Shown: positions 4,247 through 20,460 of the stretch, one piece after another
Position numbering within the stretch: position 1 is the first letter of the stretch
Layout: the number at the start of each line of letters is the position of its first letter
The notes under the pieces: generated by a model
The model's input: the letters and a program-made list of their open reading frames with translations, nothing else
Databases searched by the model: none
What the model was told of the DNA's origin: nothing
Source: Acidiphilium acidophilum
Lineage (GTDB): Bacteria; Pseudomonadota; Alphaproteobacteria; Acetobacterales; Acetobacteraceae
DNA: 64,000 nt
Assembly: GCF_033842475.1 (NCBI RefSeq)
Contig: NZ_JAWXYB010000018.1
Span: 2,649,501-2,713,500, forward strand
Reading direction: 5' to 3'
Program-made: the position numbers and the translations under genes

Positions 4247-5768
4247 ATGCAACTGACCCTCTGGACCTATGAAGGCCCTCCCCATATCGGCGCAATGCGG
4301 ATCGCCACCGCGATGCAGGGCATCCACTACGTCCTCCACGCCCCGCAAGGCGACACCTACGCCGATCTGCTGTTCACCATGATCGAGCGGCGCGACCGCC
4401 GCCCCCCGGTCACCTACACCACCTTCCAGGCGCGCGATCTCGGGTCCGATACCGCGACCCTGTTCAAAAATGCGGTGCGCGATGCCTATGAGCGCTTCAA
4501 ACCCGAAGCCATGATCGTCGGCGCGTCCTGCACCGCCGAGCTGATCCAGGACGATCCGGGCGGCCTCGCCGCCGCACTCGGCCTGCCGATCCCGGTGATC
4601 GCCCTCGAACTCCCCGCCTATCAGCGCAAGGAAAACTGGGGTGCCGCCGAAACCTTCTACCATCTGGTCCGCGCCGCCACCAACAATGTCGCGGTGCCCG
4701 CCCGCACCGGCCGCCCGGTCTCGGTCAACATCCTCGGCCCGGCAGCACTCGGGTTTCGCCACCGCGACGACCTGATCGAAGTGACCGACCTGCTGGGCAA
4801 ACTCGGTGTCGCCATCAACGTGATCGCCCCGCTGGGTGCCCGCTTCGCCGATCTCGCGCGCATCCCCGAAGCCGATGCCAATATCGTGCTCTACCCCGAA
4901 ATCGCCGGCACCGCGGCCGCCTACCTCGCCCGCAAATTCAGCCAGAAAACCATCGCCACCGTGCCGATCGGCCTGAACGCCACCCGCGAATTCGCCGCCG
5001 AAATCGCGGCCCTGACCCATCGCCCCCTGCCGGACGATCTGGAATCGGGTGCCCGCTCCGCATGGTACGCCCGCTCGGTCGACAGCACCTACCTCACCGG
5101 CAAGCGCGTGTTCGTCTTCGGCGATGCCAGCCACGCCATCGCCCTCGCCCGGGTCGCCGCGCGCGAAATCGGCTTCACCGTGGTCGGCCTCGGCAGCTAC
5201 AGCCGCGAATTCGCCCGCGAGGTCAAAGCCGCCGCCGCGCTCTACGACATCGAAGCCCTGATCAGCGACGATTACCTGACCATCGAAGCCGCGATCGCCG
5301 CCGCCCAGCCCGAGCTGGTGCTCGGCACCCAGATGGAACGCCACATCGCCAAGCGCCTCGGCATTCCCTGCGCGGTGATCTCCGCCCCCACCCATGTCCA
5401 GGATTTCCCGGCCCGCCACTCGCCCTTCGCCGGGTTCGAAGGCGCCAACGTCCTGTTCGACACCCTCACCCACCCGCTGATGATGGGGCTGGAAGAGCAT
5501 CTGCTCGGCATGTTCCGCGAGGATTTCGAATTCAACGACCAGGCCGCCCCCTCGCATCTCGGTGCCGAAGCCGCCGCGCCCACCCTCACATCCCCCATCG
5601 CAGCATCCATCCCCGCCGCACCCGACGCTCCGGCCCCGGTCGGCTGGGAGGCTTCCGCCGAGGCCGAACTGAAGAAAATCCCGTTCTTCGTGCGCGGCAA
5701 GGCGCGGAAGAACACCGAGCTTTTTGCCGCCGAGCATGGCGTGACCCTGATCACCATTGAAACGATCT

Positions 5769-5797
<29 letters not shown>
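4247..5797 (+). CDS. bchB: Light-independent protochlorophyllide reductase subunit B
   Basis: BchB (516 residues) is the partner of BchN and carries the protochlorophyllide-binding site. It opens with the invariant [20 protein letters not shown]. Asp36 (APQGD), the unusual aspartate ligand of the NB cluster, is present. The core continues through [20 protein letters not shown]. The C-terminal domain after an Ala/Pro-rich linker (about 440-465) ends with the small fold that starts [20 protein letters not shown]. It begins 4 bases after the bchN stop, and its end overlaps the bchH start. Confidence 0.97.
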
Positions 5798-10296
<4,499 letters not shown>

Positions 10297-11173: not shown

Positions 11174-11181
11174 CATGATCG
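11174..11181. repeat. Left 8-bp target-site duplication of the IS256 element
   Basis: CATGATCG directly left of the element, identical to the copy at 12535-12542. It belongs to lhaA codons 61-63. Confidence 0.93.
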
Positions 11182-12534
11182 GGTGGTGTAACCTGACGTC
11201 TGGAAATTCATTTTGGGTTGGGAGTTGGTGCCCTTGCCGGGGCATGCCCCGGCAAGGGCTGTTCATTCTGGTATTCCATGCAGTTGTTCACACCAACATG
11301 GAGACCGATGAATGGACGCCAAAAAGGATACGATTATCGAGGCACTTTTGGAACATCTGATCGAAAACGGCGCAGGCGATATCGCCACGGTATTTGCCAG
11401 GACCTTCGAACTCGCCATGCAGATCGAGCGCGAACGCTTCCTCCACGCCAGTCACTACGAGCGCAACCCCGATCGTCAGGGTTACGCCAATGGCTACAAG
11501 CCCAAGCGGATCGATACCCCGGCCGGGTCGATCACCGTCGATGTCCCCAAAACCGCCGGTCACGTGGGCGAACCCTTCTACCCACAGTCCCTCGAACGCG
11601 GCCGACGCTCGGTCCGCGCCGTCATGGTCGCCGTCGCCGAAATGTACATCAAAGGCGTCTCCACCCGCGACGTCGAGGCCGTCATGCGCGAATTCGGCAT
11701 CGAAAGCCTCTCCTCCGCTCAGGTCAGCCGCGCCAGCAAGCTGCTCGATGACGAACTCGCCGCCTGGCGCACCCGACCCCTCGCCGAGATCCGCTACCTC
11801 ATCCTCGACGCCAGATATGAAAAAATGCGCGATAATGGCGTCGTCCGCGATGCCGCCGTGCTCTCGGCCATCGGCATCGGACCCGATGAACGCCGCCGTG
11901 TCCTCGGCGTCTCGGTCGCCCTTTCCGAGGCCGAAGTCCATTGGCGTGCCTTCCTCGAAAGCCTCCATCAGCGTGGCCTGCGAGGCGTCGAATTCATCGT
12001 CTCCGATGACCATGCCGGATTGCACGCCGCACGCCGCGCCGTCTTCGGCGCCGCACACTGGCAACGATGCCAGTTCCACCTCGCCCAAAACGCCATCCAC
12101 CACGCCCCCAACCACGCCATCCGCAAACGCATCGGCGCAGAACTCCGGACCGTCTGGAACGCAAATTCCCTCGCCGCTGCCCAGATCGCTCTCACAACCC
12201 TCGTCAATGCCTATCGCGACACCGCACCAAAGCTCGCCGATTGGCTCGAACGAAATATCCCCGAAGGCCTCACCGTCTTCACACTGCCAGAACCCCACCA
12301 GCGCCGGCTTCGCACTTCCAACCCCATGGAACGCGGCATCCAGCAGGAACTCAAACGCCGCACCACCAAAATCAGGGTCTTCCCCAACGAAGCCTCCCTC
12401 GAACGCCTCGTCAGCGCCGTCCTCGTCGAAATCGATGAAAAATGGGCCGCCGACACCAAGGGCTACATCAAGTGGGACTACCAGGATGCCTGACCCCCGC
12501 TCGCCCTATTTTCCAGACATCAGGTTGCTCAATC
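11182..12534 (+). mobile_element. Complete IS256-family insertion sequence (1353 bp)
   Basis: The ends form imperfect 25-bp inverted repeats that match at 20 of 25 positions. The left end is GGTGGTGTAACCTGACGTCT and onward. The right end, read inward, has the same GTCTGGAAA core. The element is flanked by direct copies of CATGATCG (8 bp), the size generated by IS256 transposition. It contains one intact transposase gene in the same direction as the host operon. The clean target duplication and intact transposase indicate recent transposition. It may be polar on puhABC, acsF, puhE and hemA unless it carries an outward promoter. Confidence 0.95.
11312..12493 (+). CDS. IS256-family (mutator-type) transposase
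   Basis: This 393-residue DDE transposase shows catalytic residues in the expected contexts: D166 in YLILDARY, D232 in FIVSDDHAGL, and Glu in the C-terminal helix NPMERGIQQELKRRTTKIRV. The central signature HWQRCQFHLAQNA (about 249-261) is typical of the family. It is full length, without frameshift, and therefore probably active. It starts at ATG 11312, 130 bp inside the element, and stops 41 bp before the right end. Confidence 0.96.
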   Translation: MDAKKDTIIEALLEHLIENGAGDIATVFARTFELAMQIERERFLHASHYERNPDRQGYANGYKPKRIDTPAGSITVDVPKTAGHVGEPFYPQSLERGRRSVRAVMVAVAEMYIKGVSTRDVEAVMREFGIESLSSAQVSRASKLLDDELAAWRTRPLAEIRYLILDARYEKMRDNGVVRDAAVLSAIGIGPDERRRVLGVSVALSEAEVHWRAFLESLHQRGLRGVEFIVSDDHAGLHAARRAVFGAAHWQRCQFHLAQNAIHHAPNHAIRKRIGAELRTVWNANSLAAAQIALTTLVNAYRDTAPKLADWLERNIPEGLTVFTLPEPHQRRLRTSNPMERGIQQELKRRTTKIRVFPNEASLERLVSAVLVEIDEKWAADTKGYIKWDYQDA

Positions 12535-12542
12535 CATGATCG
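12535..12542. repeat. Right 8-bp target-site duplication of the IS256 element
   Basis: CATGATCG directly right of the element. It contains the ATG from which the downstream lhaA fragment could be reinitiated. Confidence 0.93.
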
Positions 12543-13824: not shown

Positions 13825-14679
13825 ATGCAAACCGGTGCAATCACTCCCTATATCGACGTCGCGCAATTGGTCCTCTACGCGTTCTGGATCTTCTTCTTCG
13901 GCCTCGTGATCTACCTGCAGCGCGAGAGCAAGCGCGAGGGCTACCCGCTGGTCACCGGCCACAAGGGCAAGCGCCTCGAAGGCTTCCCGCCGCTGCCCAG
14001 CCCGAAAACCTTCCTCCTGCCGGACGGCCAGACCAAAACCGTGCCCTGGAACGAGCCGATCGAGGTCATCAACGCCCGCCCCAGCGCCCCGTGGGACGGC
14101 GCGCCGATCATCCCGCTCGGCAACCCGATGCTCGATGGCATCGGCCCCGCCGCCTACACCCAGCGCGGCACCGACCCCGAGCGGATGCCGGACGGCGAAA
14201 TCCGCATCGTCCCCCTCCGCGTCGCGACCGATCACTGGGTCGCCGCCGAAGACCCCGACCCACGCGGCGCGCCAGTGATCTGCTGCGACGGCACGATCGG
14301 CGGCACCGTCACCGATATCTGGATCGACCGCGCCGACCAGATGCCGCTCTGGATCGAAGCGAGCGTCACCGCCGACCCCGCCCGCCGGGTGATGTTCCCG
14401 ATCGCGCTGTGCCGGGTGATCTCGAACGCCAACCCGTTCGACAATGCCTGGGTCAGCTTCGGCAGCATCGTCAGCGGCAGCCGGGGCCGCTCCGGCCTGC
14501 CCCGCTCGGCCAGCGGCGTCTCGGTCAAACTCGCCTCGGTCACCGCCGCGCAATTCGCCATCGCGCCCGGCATCGCGCATCCGGACATCATCACCCCGCG
14601 CGAGGAAGATCGTCTGATGGCCTATTTCGCCTCCGGCCATCTCTACGCCACCGCCGCCCGTTCGGAGCCGCTGCTGTGA
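13825..14679 (+). CDS. puhA: Photosynthetic reaction centre subunit H
   Basis: PuhA (284 residues) caps the cytoplasmic face of the type II reaction centre and guides protons to the secondary quinone. One transmembrane helix is near the N-terminus (residues about 12-32, VLYAFWIFFFGLVIYLQRES). The family strings REGYPLVTGHKGKRLEGFPP and IWIDRADQMPLWIEA follow, and the soluble domain ends with ITPREEDRLMAYFASGHLYA. GAGG precedes the ATG at 13825. It lies 14 bp after the lhaA stop and overlaps puhB by 4 bases. Confidence 0.97.
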   Translation: MQTGAITPYIDVAQLVLYAFWIFFFGLVIYLQRESKREGYPLVTGHKGKRLEGFPPLPSPKTFLLPDGQTKTVPWNEPIEVINARPSAPWDGAPIIPLGNPMLDGIGPAAYTQRGTDPERMPDGEIRIVPLRVATDHWVAAEDPDPRGAPVICCDGTIGGTVTDIWIDRADQMPLWIEASVTADPARRVMFPIALCRVISNANPFDNAWVSFGSIVSGSRGRSGLPRSASGVSVKLASVTAAQFAIAPGIAHPDIITPREEDRLMAYFASGHLYATAARSEPLL

Positions 14680-15371
14680 GCGCCCCGCACGATCAAGCAG
14701 CCCGCCGCACCCCCACACGCGGCCTGCCGCACGAGCTGCCCGCCGGGGAAACCCTGCTCTGGCAGGGCGCACCGAGCTTCCGCGCCCTCGCCTTCGGTGC
14801 CTTCCATCTGCGCTTCTGGGCGATCTATGTCGCGATCATGCTGGCCTGGGGCATCATCAGCGCCCTGATCTCGCATCATTCGATGCAGATGGCCGAAGCC
14901 GCCGGATTCTGGTCGCTCTTCCTCGGCGTGCTCGCCCTCGGCCTGGTCCTCGGCTTCGCCCTGCTCACCGCGCGCACCACCATCTATTCCATCACCAGCA
15001 AACGCGTGGTGATCAGCTACGGTGCCGCCATCCGCAAGCATTTCAACCTGCCGTTCCGCGCCATCCTCTCGGCCGATCTCCGTACCGCGCCGGACGGCAC
15101 CGGCGATATCGTGATGGCACCGGAAGCCGACCGCAACCTCTCCTACATACTGCTCTGGCCCCACGTCCGCGCCGGCCGTCGCGCGCGGGTCGAACCGGTG
15201 CTGCGCGGCATCCCCGAGGCCGGGCGCGTCGCCCGCCTGCTCGCCGAAGCGCTCGACCCCGCCCGCCCCGCAACCCTGCCGATCCCCGCCCTCACCCCCT
15301 CGCGCGGCGACATCCGCCAGGATAACGGTGCCATGACACCCTCCCTCGCCTCGCGCGGTCACGCGGCATGA
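14676..15371 (+). CDS. puhB: Photosynthetic complex assembly protein PuhB
   Basis: PuhB is a membrane protein needed for reaction-centre and LH1 assembly. The 231-residue product starts with GTG at 14676 inside the puhA stop (GTGA). It has PHELPAGETLLWQGAPSFRA near residue 16, two membrane helices (about 40-100) and a bacterial PH-like domain from about 105 (TTIYSITSKRVVISYGAAIR). The frame stays open upstream across puhA, but that part is out-of-frame shadow. Its stop overlaps the puhC start. Confidence 0.9.
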   Translation: MSAPHDQAARRTPTRGLPHELPAGETLLWQGAPSFRALAFGAFHLRFWAIYVAIMLAWGIISALISHHSMQMAEAAGFWSLFLGVLALGLVLGFALLTARTTIYSITSKRVVISYGAAIRKHFNLPFRAILSADLRTAPDGTGDIVMAPEADRNLSYILLWPHVRAGRRARVEPVLRGIPEAGRVARLLAEALDPARPATLPIPALTPSRGDIRQDNGAMTPSLASRGHAA

Positions 15372-15838
15372 GCGACACCGCCCATTTTCACGACGACGAC
15401 GCCCCGCCCCATGTGCCGCGCTGGGCGGTCATCGCGGCGGGATGCCTCATGCTCGGCACCGTGGCGCTGGCCACGATCTCGCGCCTGACCACCCCCGCCT
15501 ACACCCTGCCCCCCGCCACCGCGCCGATCATGGCGCTGCGCTTCCTGCAAACCCCGGCCCAGGCCCTGATCGTGCAGAACGCGGCAACCGGCAAACAAAT
15601 CACCACACTCGCCCCGAGCGCCGATGCCTTCCTGCGCACCACCCTGCGCACCATGATCGAGGCCCGCCTCGCGGACGGTTTTTCCCGCACAGCCCCGTTC
15701 CTGCTGATCCCCGCCGCCCACGGCGTCCTGATGCTCGACGATCCCACCACCGGCGAACACATCGACCTGCAAGCCTTCGGCCCGAGCAATTCCGGCCAGT
15801 TCAAGGCCCTGATGCACGATAACGGAGACAACTCATGA
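15368..15838 (+). CDS. puhC: Photosynthetic complex assembly protein PuhC
   Basis: A 156-residue protein with a short His/Asp-rich cytoplasmic head (HFHDDDAPPHVPRW), one transmembrane helix (about residues 19-42) and a periplasmic domain containing the family pattern ALRFLQTPAQALIVQNAATG. PuhC supports LH1/reaction-centre organisation in Rhodobacter. It starts by ATGA overlap with puhB and its end overlaps the next gene by 4 bases. Confidence 0.88.
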   Translation: MSDTAHFHDDDAPPHVPRWAVIAAGCLMLGTVALATISRLTTPAYTLPPATAPIMALRFLQTPAQALIVQNAATGKQITTLAPSADAFLRTTLRTMIEARLADGFSRTAPFLLIPAAHGVLMLDDPTTGEHIDLQAFGPSNSGQFKALMHDNGDNS

Positions 15839-16152
15839 TCGGCACCAAACAACGCGTCGACCTGCGCTGCCTGCTCGATTTCGAACAGACGCCGGAAAGC
15901 CTCCACGCCCACGCCATCCCCCAGGATGTCGAGATCCGGCCCGGCGATGAAATCCTCCTGCACGACGTCCCCGACATGGTCGGCTTCGGCGAGCGCCTGA
16001 CCGGCGAATGCGGAGCCACCCTTCTGCGCGCCGGCCCGCTCGAACGGCTCTGGACCCAGTTCCGCTCGCTGTTCGAAATCGCCGAGCTCTACGAGGTCGG
16101 CTTCCAGCCGCTCGACGACGTCAATATCGCGACCATCCACCACGGAGCCTGA
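15835..16152 (+). CDS. Conserved photosynthesis-cluster protein between puhC and acsF
   Basis: A soluble 105-residue protein without membrane segment or known catalytic motif (begins [20 protein letters not shown]). A small gene at this position is common in proteobacterial photosynthesis clusters, which is why it is judged real. The 4-base overlap with puhC and the 4-base gap to acsF show that it is co-transcribed and probably translationally coupled. It is acidic, with two Cys (one in TGECGATLL). A role in the cyclase or in complex assembly is a guess from position only. Confidence 0.75.
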
Positions 16153-16156
16153 GATC

Positions 16157-17260
16157 ATGAACGCCATGACCAGCACCATCGCCGCCCCCGAGGCCCATAC
16201 CGCCCCCAACGCCCAGACCGCTCCGAACGCCCAGACTGAAGCCGCGCAGAACAGCACCATGCTGAGCCCGCGCTTCTACACCACCGATTTCGCCGCCCTC
16301 GACAGGATCGACGTCGGCCCGATCCGCGATCAGTGGGAAACCCTCATGGAAGAGCTGAAAGCCGACCCCAACAAGGGCCATTTCGCCCGAACCGACGAAT
16401 TCAAGGTCGATATTTCGGGCATGCCCGAACCGCTCCGCCGCGAATTCCTCGATTTCCTGGTCAGTTCCGTCACCGCCGAGTTCTCCGGCTGCGTGCTCTA
16501 CGCCGAAATCAAGAAGCGCTGCGGCAATCAGGATCTCCGCCGCCTGTTCGGCTATATGAGCCGCGACGAGGCCCGCCATGCCGGCTTCATCAACGAGGCC
16601 CTGCGCGACCTCAACACCCGCGTCGATCTCGGCTTCCTGACCCGCGCCAAAAAATACCATTTCTTCAAGCCGAAATTCATCTTCTACGCGACCTACCTGT
16701 CCGAAAAGATCGGCTACGCCCGCTACATCACCATCTACCGCCAGCTCGAAGCCCATCCCGAGCTGCGCATCCACCCGATCTTCAAATGGTTCCGCGAATG
16801 GTGCAACGACGAGTTCCGCCACGGCGAAGCCTTCGCCCTGCTGATGCGCGCCAACCCGTGGATGCTCACGGGACTGAACAAGCTCTGGGTCCGGTTCTTC
16901 CAGCTCGCGGTCTTCGCCACCATGTATGTGCGCGATCACGCAAGGCCGCATTTCCACGCCGCCCTCGGCCTCGACCCCACCGAATACGACATGCAGGTGT
17001 TCCGCATCACCAGCAAAATCGCCGAGCAGGTCTTCCCGATCACCCTCGACATCGAAAACCCGAAATTCCTCGCCGGACTCGAACGCCTCCGTAAAATCGA
17101 TGTCGCCAATCAGGCGATCCGCGACCACAAGGGCATCGGTGCCAAACTCAAACGCGCGGGCCATGCGGTGCAGGCCGCCGCCGCCTTCGCTTCCCTCTTC
17201 CTGATGCGCGCCAAATCCAAACCCCTCCCGGCGGATGTGCGCCTGCAACCCGCCTGGTAA
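16157..17260 (+). CDS. acsF: Aerobic Mg-protoporphyrin IX monomethyl ester cyclase
   Basis: AcsF is the oxygen-dependent diiron cyclase that forms the isocyclic ring E. The 367-residue protein has the carboxylate/His diiron signatures [30 protein letters not shown] and [17 protein letters not shown] (about residues 110-230). An extra Ala/Thr/Gln-rich N-terminus of about 35 residues precedes the core. An in-frame ATG at 16166 is an alternative start. Its presence fits bacteriochlorophyll synthesis under air. The anaerobic enzyme BchE is not in this window. Confidence 0.97.
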
Positions 17261-17272
17261 GGAGACAAGCCC

Positions 17273-19225
17273 ATGAGCAACTACATCATCCCCGGCCTGT
17301 TCGCCCTGTTCATCTGGTGGTTCAGCACCGGCGCGATCATCTTCCTCGATGGCCTGCCCCGCCCGACCTTCAAATGGAGCATGCTCGGCGCCACGGCGGT
17401 GTTCGCCATCTGCGTGATCGGTCTGGTCAAGGTCAGTGGCGAAACCACCGTCGCCGCCGCCTACTGGGCGTTCGGCTTCGGCCTGTTCGCCTGGGGCTGG
17501 CAGGAAATCAGCTTCTACATGGGCTTCGTCACCGGCCCGCGCACCGCCTCCTGCCCGGAAAACTGCAAGGGCTGGAAGCATTTCGGCCACGCGATCCAGA
17601 CCAGCCTGTGGCACGAGCTCGCCATCATCGCCTCCGCCGCGCTGATCATCGGCCTCACCTGGGGCCAGCCCAACCAGGTCGGTGTCTGGACCTTCATGGT
17701 CCTGTGGTGGATGCACCAGAGCGCCAAGCTCAACGTCTTCCTCGGCGTGCGCAACCTGAACGAGGAGTTCCTGCCCGAACACCTCAACTTCCTCAAAAGC
17801 TTCCTCAAGCGCAAATCGATGAACCTGCTGTTCCCGTTCTCGATCACCATCTCCACCGTGATCGGCACGATCATGTTCGAACATGCGGGCCGCGCCACCA
17901 CCGGCTTCGCCCGCGCCGGGGACACGTTCATCGGCGTCATGATGGCGCTCGCGATCCTGGAGCACTGGTTCCTCGTTCTGCCCCTCCCGGCGGCGAAACT
18001 CTGGAGCTGGGGTCTGAAATCCCACAAACCGGCCAAAGCCTTCGACGTCGAAATCGTCGCGGGCTTCCTCGGCGCCGGCAAAACCACCTTCATGCGTCGC
18101 CGGCTCGACATGCTCGGCAGCGTCCCCGCCGAATCGCGCGAAAAAACCGTCGTGCTGGTCAATGATTTCAGCACCGTCGGCATCGACGGCTCGCTGCTGC
18201 GCGGCCAGGGTGCCGATGTCGTGGAACTGCCCAACGGCTGCATCTGCTGCACCCTGAAAAACGACCTCGCCAGCCAGCTCGAAGAGGTCGTCGGCAAATT
18301 CGCCCCCGACCGCGTGCTGATCGAACCCTCCGGCGTCGCCGACCTCGCCTCGCTGATCGGCGTGCTCGAACGCCCGGCCATCGCGCCGTTCAAACGCAGC
18401 CTCACCGTGGTCACCATGATCGACGCGAGCGCCTTCCTCGGCGACTATACCGAAATGCAGGGTCATTTCAGCGCCCAGGCCCGGCTCGCATCGCTGCTGA
18501 TCGTCAACAAGACCGATCTGGTCAGCGCCGCCGAACGCGACACCGTCGAGGAAACCCTGCAACGTCTCAACCCCGACGCCCGGATCATCACCGCCCGCTA
18601 CGGCGCGGTCCCGGCGGACCTTTTCGCCACCACCAAAGCCCGCAAGGACCCCACCGCCGCCGACGACGCCCGCGCCCTGGCCAAACCCGCCCCGATCCGC
18701 CACGTCGCCGAACACCAGCCCATACCCGCCCCACTTGCCCCCGCCTCGATCGCCCCCGCTTCGATCGCCCCCGTTTCGATATCGCCGGCCCACGATCACG
18801 ACGATCATGGCCACGATCATCATCACCACGACCATCACCACGATCATGGCCACGACCACACCTGCACCGACACCGGCTGCAACCACCCGGATCATGACCA
18901 CGGGCACGACCACGCCCATCAGGACGCCCTCGGCTTCGGCTCCTGGGCCGGCACGCTCGACACGATCATCGACACCGATGCCCTCCGCCACGTGCTCGAT
19001 GCCGCCGCCGCGGGCGAATTCGGCACCATCGCCCGGCTGAAAGGCCTCGCCCGCTCCGGTCGCGGCTGGGTGCAGTTCGACATTGCGGGCCACCGCGCCA
19101 GCATCTGCGCCTTCGCCGCCCCGGCCGACGAACAACCCCGCGTCATCGCAATCGGCCGCAACCTCGACGAAGCCGGCCTCGCCGCCGCCTTCTCCGGCTG
19201 CTCCATGCGCCTCGCCGCCGAATAA
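17273..19225 (+). CDS. puhE: PuhE fused to a CobW/COG0523 metallochaperone GTPase
   Basis: This is a 650-residue in-frame fusion. Residues 1-250 are PuhE (DUF3623), a multi-pass membrane assembly factor of the photosynthesis cluster ([40 protein letters not shown]). After a linker of about 12 residues, a G3E GTPase follows: Walker [10 protein letters not shown] at 264-272, [10 protein letters not shown], the CxCC metal site NGCICCT with Cys323, Cys325 and Cys326, IEPSGVADL, and the base motif NKTD. Residues about 507-549 hold 20 His and 2 Cys. A CobW C-terminal domain closes the protein. COG0523 proteins deliver Zn or other metals. The membrane anchor places that activity at the photosynthetic membrane. 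There is no stop or start signal at the junction, and both halves look complete. Confidence 0.95.
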
Positions 19226-19248: not shown

Positions 19249-20460
19249 ATGAACTACGAAAACTTCTTCACCACCAGCCTCGACCAGCTCCACCGCGAAG
19301 GCCGTTACCGCGTCTTCGCCGACATCGAACGCCACGCCGGCAGCTTCCCGCAAGCCACACGTTACGGCGCGGACGGTGAACGCAAGGTCACCGTCTGGTG
19401 CTCCAACGACTATCTCGGCATGGGCCAGCACCCCACCGTGCTGAGCGCGATGCACGAAGCGCTCGACAAATGCGGTGCCGGCGCGGGCGGCACCCGCAAC
19501 ATCGCCGGCACCAATCATTTCCACACCCTGCTCGAACGCGAACTCGCGGACCTCCACGCCAAGGACAGCGCCCTGCTGTTCAACTCCGGCTACATGTCGA
19601 ACTGGGCCTCGCTCTGCACCCTCGCCCACAAACTGCCCAACTGCGTCGTCCTGTCCGATGCCTCGAACCACGCCTCCATGATCGAAGGCATCCGCCACAG
19701 CCGCGCCCAGTGCGAGGTCTTCGCCCATAACGACCCCGCCGACCTCGCCCGCAAACTCGCGGCGATCGACCCCTCCCGCCCCAAACTGATCGCCTTCGAA
19801 TCGGTCTATTCGATGGACGGCGACGTCGCTCCCATCGCCGAGATCTGCGACGTCGCGGATCACTACGGCGCCATGACCTATCTCGACGAAGTCCACGCCG
19901 TCGGCCTCTACGGTGCCCATGGCGGCGGCATCTCCGAACGCGAAGGCATCGCCCACCGCCTTACGGTAATCGAAGGCACCCTCGCCAAAGGCTTCGGCGT
20001 GATCGGCGGCTACATCACCGGCTCGACCGCCCTGTGCGATTTCGTCCGCAGCTACGCCTCAGGCTTCATCTTCACCACCGCCCTCCCGCCGATGGTCGCC
20101 GCCGGGGCGCTCGCCAGCATCCGCCACCTCAAATCCAGCAGCGCCGAACGCGACCGCATGCACGAACGCGTCGCCCGCCTCCGCGCCAAACTCACTCGCG
20201 CCGGCCTGCCCCATCTCGACAATCCCAGCCACATCGTCCCGGTCATGGTGGGCGATGCCGCCCAGTGCAAATCGATCAGCGACGCCCTGCTCGACCGCTT
20301 CGCGATCTACGTCCAGCCGATCAACTACCCCACCGTCCCGCGCGGCACCGAACGCCTCCGCCTGACCCCCTCGCCGCTCCATACCGACGCCGATATCGAC
20401 CATCTGGTCGACGCCCTCGCCACGATCTGGCACGAAAGGTCGATCCGCCACGCCGCCTGA
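19249..20460 (+). CDS. hemA: 5-aminolevulinate synthase
   Basis: HemA (403 residues) condenses glycine and succinyl-CoA to 5-aminolevulinate, the first tetrapyrrole precursor in alphaproteobacteria. PLP fold-type I motifs are present: the substrate loop [27 protein letters not shown], and the PLP lysine K247 in [18 protein letters not shown] ribosome site precedes the ATG at 19249. As the last gene of the photosynthesis run, it probably supplies precursor under the same control. A housekeeping copy may exist elsewhere. Confidence 0.97.

Follow-up and report, generated by a model that had tools for sequence, protein, structure and literature searches.

The photosynthesis gene cluster of Acidiphilium acidophilum encodes, in one unbroken frame, the membrane protein PuhE joined to a GTPase of the COG0523 family. 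The same layout recurs in other alphaproteobacterial phototrophs, and its distribution reaches far beyond the lineages in which zinc-type reaction centres are expected. The sequences place the fused GTPase in a recognizable family and indicate that it is maintained by selection. We tentatively propose, as a reading that is quite possible and falls somewhat short of probable, that a single capture produced a metal-handling GTPase of the Zn class that is tethered to the membrane and, in ordinary phototrophs, serves PuhE or a client docked to it.

The fusion gene and its surroundings

In the window (the whole 64,000-nucleotide stretch of the A. acidophilum genome that was analysed), translation of positions 17273–19225 on the forward strand gave a stop-free frame of 650 residues. 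Pfam and NCBIfam profiles resolved three domains on this strand, each above its Pfam cut-off: the PuhE membrane domain (DUF3623; residues 1–253, positions 17273–18031, E = 8.8e-109), the G3E/COG0523 GTPase domain (PF02492, cobW; residues 259–439, positions 18047–18589, E = 9.7e-42) and CobW_C (PF07683; residues 556–643, positions 18938–19201, E = 5e-09, 36.3 bits against a cut-off of 22). The PuhE model TIGR03055 scored 322.3 bits against a cut-off of 164.05. The sequence further contains a Walker A motif, GFLGAGKT (residues 264–271, 18062–18085), a CxCC metal motif (residues 323–326, 18239–18250), the guanine-specificity motif NKTD (residues 412–415, 18506–18517) and a His-rich linker that contains CTDTGCNH and, in the translation, 20 His and 2 Cys (residues 507–549, 18791–18919), all on the forward strand. 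The protein therefore carries a cobW domain with Walker A and NKxD, CxCC and CobW_C, the features of COG0523/G3E membership. This agrees with the preliminary description, which had reported one 650-codon frame holding PuhE, the GTPase and CobW_C and had placed the motifs and the His stretch to within one residue of these positions; its proposal that the GTPase is tethered to the membrane is also supported, as the tether follows from the single frame. Four further cobW-domain matches were found in the same genome, one of them spanning just 29 profile positions. A long open frame on the opposite strand (16121–19135) was taken as a high-GC shadow.

The fusion gene is closely packed between genes of pigment synthesis. 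The oxygen-dependent Mg-protoporphyrin ester cyclase gene acsF (16157–17260, forward strand; TIGR02029) ends 12 bases before it, and the 5-aminolevulinate synthase gene hemA (19249–20460, forward strand; TIGR01821) starts 23 bases after it. On the same strand, the cluster also holds puhA, encoding the reaction-centre H subunit (13825–14679; TIGR01150), puhC (15368–15838; TIGR03054) and bchH, encoding the Mg-chelatase large subunit, a CobN homologue (5757–9371; NF009942 and TIGR02025 above cut-off). The cluster further includes puhB, bchL, bchM and a broken lhaA. PuhE membership is thus borne out by location, in a photosynthesis gene cluster with puhA and acsF nearby. The protein shares with the PuhE family the full-length domain over cut-off and the clustering with acsF, hemA and puhA; it differs in about 400 extra residues, predicted to be cytoplasmic, that occur in part of the family only. 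Within lhaA lies an IS256-family element (11181–12535) with 26-nt inverted ends and a target duplication of about 7–8 bp, which separates the puh genes from the upstream bch genes. The gene is split relative to that of A. rubrum (L055), so the LH1 assembly factor of this strain looks broken.

Other puh or bch genes adjoin the fusion in nearly all loci fetched. This setting is not universal, since the fetched flanks of two fusions (L142 and L159) lacked all eight of the other marker genes searched. The contig name prefix of L142 is that of the MAG containing L147, a second fusion copy that lies inside a cluster. The accessible literature searched, in titles, abstract openings and passages, contained no mention of the fusion, which fits the earlier statement that no function had been described for it. 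In term searches of the accessible text, PuhE and CobW were both absent from a study of Acetobacteraceae phylogeny (PMC10715153), CobW was absent from a study of Acidiphilium genomes (PMC7677001), and the word starts photosynth, chlorophyll and fusion were absent from a COG0523 survey (PMC2770081).

Distribution and origin of the fusion

We searched 397 genomes of the window's family and found PuhE in 122 of them. The search gave 127 DUF3623 matches, 107 of which were examined (106 fetched and the window's own). Among the 106 fetched matches were 24 full fusions (in one of them a contig end truncates PuhE), two fusions cut by contig ends (L039 and L059), 14 PuhE–CobW_C proteins without the GTPase and 66 cases of PuhE alone. 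The full fusion occurred in 13 of the 40 genera examined in the family, and a 14th genus is known from a contig-end-cut copy only. Sampling across the class gave a full fusion in 3 of 29 genomes with a match (G000, G056 and G494); 16 of the 29 were read (14 plus G000 and G056), 11 had over-cut-off matches with frames of at most 315 codons and two had sub-threshold fragments. A phylum sample likewise gave 3 of 31 PuhE genomes (G000, G056 and G1144), 30 of them read and one (G1089) judged from frame length alone. A scan of named genomes, from which the best 80 loci out of at least 566 were kept, turned up the full fusion in Jiella, Aurantimonas, Fulvimarina (including F. pelagi HTCC2506), Pararhizobium mangrovi, Lichenibacterium minor, Rhodovibrio sodomensis, Lichenicoccus roseus and Acidocella MAGs; it also occurred in MAGs assigned to Croceicoccus and Ferrovum, an assignment that may be mistaken. 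PuhE stands by itself in Belnapia, two Rhodopila-labelled MAGs, three Magnetospirillum records and Acidisphaera sp. L21. Plasmid records in PLSDB contained no single place covering 80% of the fusion protein.

The 173 distinct PuhE frames comprised 49 full fusions (counting L235, whose PuhE part is cut by a contig end), two incomplete fusions (L039 and L154), 17 PuhE–CobW_C proteins and 105 cases of PuhE alone, one of which (L059) is a contig-end-cut fusion scored as unfused. PuhE is thus normally a stand-alone protein, as had been stated before, and since most PuhE frames read are without the GTPase, the GTPase is best regarded as an accessory of PuhE. Assembly error or chance joining was considered and rejected, because the identical unbroken layout recurs in 49 of the 173 frames and because dN/dS of the GTPase part was 0.03–0.11 in 11 of 12 pairs. 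In the complete genome of Jiella pelagia (L154) a frameshift lies within the GTPase, either an error or a decaying copy. Four PuhE proteins labelled Hyphomicrobiales or Rhizobiaceae (L172:6816–7703, L177:10001–10879, L182:10001–10861 and L185:500–1342) have neither GTPase nor CobW_C and finish in a short tail containing several His; these tails are perhaps relics of the fusion.

Compared with 59 standalone COG0523 proteins, the fused GTPases formed one clade (SH-aLRT 98, stem length 1.01), and repeated capture of the GTPase is accordingly unsupported. Among the matches listed from 289 alphaproteobacterial genomes, with at most six candidates scored per genome, identity above 50% to the GTPase was seen only in fused proteins. 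A standalone close copy was sought in 40 genomes without a full fusion and not found, all matches to the GTPase staying at or below 44% identity. Six of the 40 belong to the window's genus and gave no PuhE match; three of the six are less than 90% complete, so that PuhE may be missing there because of a gap.

A PuhE tree was built from 149 rows after removal of near-identical unfused rows (172 to 149), L235 having been dropped as too short. Every one of the 50 fusion rows, 48 of them full and 2 incomplete, fell into one set of 71 rows (SH-aLRT 96), which otherwise contained 18 rows scored unfused, including the cut fusion L059, and three PuhE–CobW_C rows. All the trees were quick trees with SH-aLRT support only and many open forks. 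The other 14 of the 17 PuhE–CobW_C rows lay outside the fusion set, a placement not accounted for by one clade having simply lost the GTPase; at least 12 changes are needed on this tree. Pfam CobW_C, run on seven of these proteins, was over its cut-off in L080, L162 and L179, below it in L131 and without a match in L086, L089 and L128; the remaining assignments rest on a profile built from fused proteins, and L145 is a weak 30-residue match only. The CobW_C domains of 16 PuhE–CobW_C proteins grouped with those of the 49 full fusions (branch support 99), apart from 38 of 39 standalone proteins; the long-branch standalone row L293 fell among the fused ones. An AU test did not reject PuhE–CobW_C and full fusions as one clade (p = 0.81). 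Most simply, the PuhE–CobW_C form would have arisen through loss of the GTPase; it may also have come by transfer, or represent an older stage than the full fusion.

Constraint on the GTPase, the linker and PuhE

Walker A and NKxD were retained in all 49 full fusions and CxCC in 46, and 39 had at least six His in the linker. Seven fusions kept CxCC with fewer than six linker His; three others (L060, L062 and L102) had lost CxCC and had at most two linker His while keeping Walker A and NKxD. With fewer than six linker His in 10 of 49 and no CxCC in 3 of 49, metal handling is not universal among the fusions. The L060/L062 pair, which lacks CxCC, had a GTPase dN/dS of 0.363, indicating relaxed selection. 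The linker evolves fast, with dN/dS of 0.14–0.57 in the 8 of 12 pairs where it was computable. A linker motif, C-x3/4-C-x0-2-H, was present in the window's protein (18791–18919) and in L053, L055, L058, L069, L072, L073, L192, L204 and L235.

According to passages of PMC7895991, CobW has an extra Cys pair that is absent from the Zn-preferring proteins YeiR and YjiA. None of the 46 CxCC-bearing fused proteins has this pair, which does occur in 5 of 59 standalone relatives, including one encoded in the window's genome; its absence from all 46 fits a Zn-class protein. The fused GTPases share Walker A, CxCC, NKxD, CobW_C, a His-rich region (in 39 of 49) and the lack of a CobW-type Cys pair with YjiA/YeiR/ZigA-type COG0523 proteins, and differ from these in forming a clade separate from the 59 standalone proteins compared and in having a membrane protein as partner. 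The window's protein falls outside the ZigA family proper (NF038288; 102.7 bits against a cut-off of 600). It likewise falls outside CobW, the cobalt chaperone for CobNST (TIGR02475; 90.8 bits against 332.1), with which it shares the GTPase family and a client pathway that also involves tetrapyrrole metalation; it differs in having no C56/C61-like pair.

The CobW_C domain bears two sets of conserved residues. The first (W558, G584, G598, W599 and D632) stays the same whether or not a GTPase is present but differs in standalone relatives. The second (R588 and K590) is shared by full fusions and standalone proteins and is not retained in PuhE–CobW_C proteins. This pattern suggests separate faces of CobW_C, one for PuhE and one for the GTPase. 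The persistence of CobW_C without the GTPase in some lineages points to a role that does not need metal.

PuhE itself is predicted to have about seven hydrophobic helices, with loop charges that fit a cytoplasmic C-terminus. Going by the title of a 2005 study by Aklujkar, cited in PMC11762602, it is said to have a role in bacteriochlorophyll production or in the shift to phototrophy. Six residues (E78, H114, E115, N154, E230 and H231) are conserved in 148–149 of the 149 PuhE rows, and each lies, by prediction, 4–6 residues from the cytoplasmic end of its helix. The chance of this depth clustering was 0.005 under a uniform model, and that of a common face about 0.13 allowing for hydropathy-window bias; because hydropathy windows push polar residues to helix ends, the clustering is weak and serves as a lead. 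A search of the PuhE profile against solved structures found no relative, the best match being ferritin (E = 1.2). A metal site at the invariant Glu and His residues near the cytoplasmic face is possible. That PuhE is a membrane metalloprotein, with its site formed by E78, H114, E115, E230 and H231 and the fused GTPase as a chaperone joined to its own client, seems doubtful; if true, PuhE would gain a chemistry and COG0523 a covalently attached client.

Zinc pigment and candidate clients of the GTPase

Acidiphilium makes Zn-bacteriochlorophyll a, and passages of PMC7242693 and PMC12654162 describe the route by which zinc enters as unknown. The preliminary description had called the protein a His-rich COG0523 GTPase and linked it to this pigment. 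Its COG0523 assignment holds, the absence of the CobW Cys pair fitting a Zn-class protein; the link to Zn-bacteriochlorophyll is not supported, for the fusion is present in Fulvimarina pelagi, Jiella, Aurantimonas, Lichenibacterium, Lichenicoccus and Rhodovibrio sodomensis. These species are not known for zinc pigment and presumably use Mg. As a proxy we used residue L168 of the reaction centre, where Glu is, we assume, the mark of Acidiphilium or Zn-type reaction centres and His is the ordinary residue. Of 30 genomes read at this position, a set without Rhodovibrio, the 26 with the fusion had Glu in 9 and His in 17, and all four without it had His. With His in 17 of 26 fusion genomes, the fusion is far wider than the Glu L168 clade rather than restricted to it; as far as can be judged from sequence, it is not confined to Zn-pigment producers, and a Zn-bacteriochlorophyll-specific function was rejected as its general role. 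Six of the Glu genomes, the window's own among them, belong to the window's genus; the other three are G023 and two labelled Acidocella. Glu L168 beyond the window's genus (L311, L314 and L322, from G023, G283 and G325, two of them Acidocella-labelled) suggests that Zn-type centres may extend beyond Acidiphilium. Another genome of the family, G043, carries two pufLM pairs (contigs C3 and C45).

A narrower version, limited to Acidiphilium, in which the fusion brings zinc into bacteriochlorophyll by supply or exchange, has points in its favour. The PuhE domain is 96% identical in Acidiphilium rubrum, a maker of Zn-bacteriochlorophyll a (PMC7242693, in the passages available), Glu L168 occurs in the Acidiphilium and Acidocella genomes read, and the 10 of 49 fusions with the C-x3/4-C-x0-2-H linker motif all belong to the Acidiphilium/Acidocella clade. 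Rhodopila, called a sister genus of Acidiphilium, had no Zn-bacteriochlorophyll a in a mat, according to a passage of PMC12542754, and the two fusion-free Rhodopila-labelled MAGs are what a zinc-pigment reading predicts. Against this, the linker motif is absent from L040, L041 and L068 of the same clade, and the PuhE of Acidisphaera sp. L21 is unfused, its genus being reported as a conditional Zn-pigment producer in the accessible part of PMC12654162. Together with the His L168 genomes and the fusion in Rhodovibrio, Fulvimarina, Jiella and others, these observations leave zinc supply an improbable explanation. On the preferred reading the fusion acts in ordinary phototrophs and would not be a device for zinc pigment; zinc supply in Acidiphilium would at most be a later use, gained through co-option.

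Other clients and other functions were also weighed. By analogy with CobW and CobNST, the fusion might, at the membrane, feed or guard Mg-chelatase BchHID, which is homologous to CobNST: bchH shares a cluster with the fusion gene, its product also matches CobN models, if below their cut-offs, and a passage of PMC7895991 proposes that GTP hydrolysis by CobW releases Co(II) to CobNST. The fused GTPase, however, is not of the CobW type and its partner is PuhE rather than a chelatase, and we consider such a metallochaperone rather unlikely. The linker and CxCC could instead act as a local trap that keeps zinc or other ions off Mg-chelatase and free tetrapyrroles; a long, fast-evolving linker that is His-rich in most fusions is as a buffer would be. 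A GTPase would be superfluous in a buffer, yet Walker A and NKxD are invariant, and seven fusions retain CxCC with few linker His, which makes a trap unlikely. Were the GTPase a nucleotide switch for which metal is no longer essential, with CobW_C as the part that works on PuhE, one would understand the 17 PuhE–CobW_C frames without a GTPase, one a weak match, the three fusions that lost CxCC and kept the nucleotide motifs, and the five CobW_C residues shared with and without the GTPase. The retention of CxCC in 46 of 49 and a GTPase that is under strong purifying selection in 11 of 12 pairs speak against it, and we regard this switch as very unlikely. Activation of the neighbouring AcsF diiron cyclase, analogous to that of nitrile hydratase by a COG0523 member assumed to aid iron insertion (PMC2770081, in part), draws on the position of acsF directly upstream in the window and within the fetched locus of most fusions. 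But acsF is not beside the fusion in L142, L159, L170 and L173, with the L159 and L173 genomes carrying it elsewhere (in L159 on the fusion's contig, about 350 kb off), and unfused PuhE likewise has acsF in most loci; we think AcsF activation highly improbable.

We return to the single capture of a Zn-class GTPase as the tentatively preferred reading, and for its metal, the direction of transfer and the client we infer the following course. In an alphaproteobacterial phototroph, PuhE would have acquired a Zn-class COG0523 GTPase at its cytoplasmic end in a single event; with the C-terminus in the cytoplasm, the GTPase would sit next to PuhE at the membrane face. A divalent metal, most likely Zn(II), may be collected by the His-rich linker and would be taken over by the GTP-bound CxCC site, with CobW_C docking the GTPase onto PuhE. 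GTP hydrolysis would then free the metal to PuhE or to a client of the bacteriochlorophyll pathway held there, and pigment synthesis or assembly could thereby be tuned to metal status.

The result weakens one tempting answer to how Acidiphilium puts zinc into its pigment, and a lineage-specific co-option can still be tested. Full fusion, PuhE–CobW_C and PuhE alone form a natural series in which each part is separately testable. The fusion physically ties what would be a metal-handling GTPase to a photosynthesis assembly factor.
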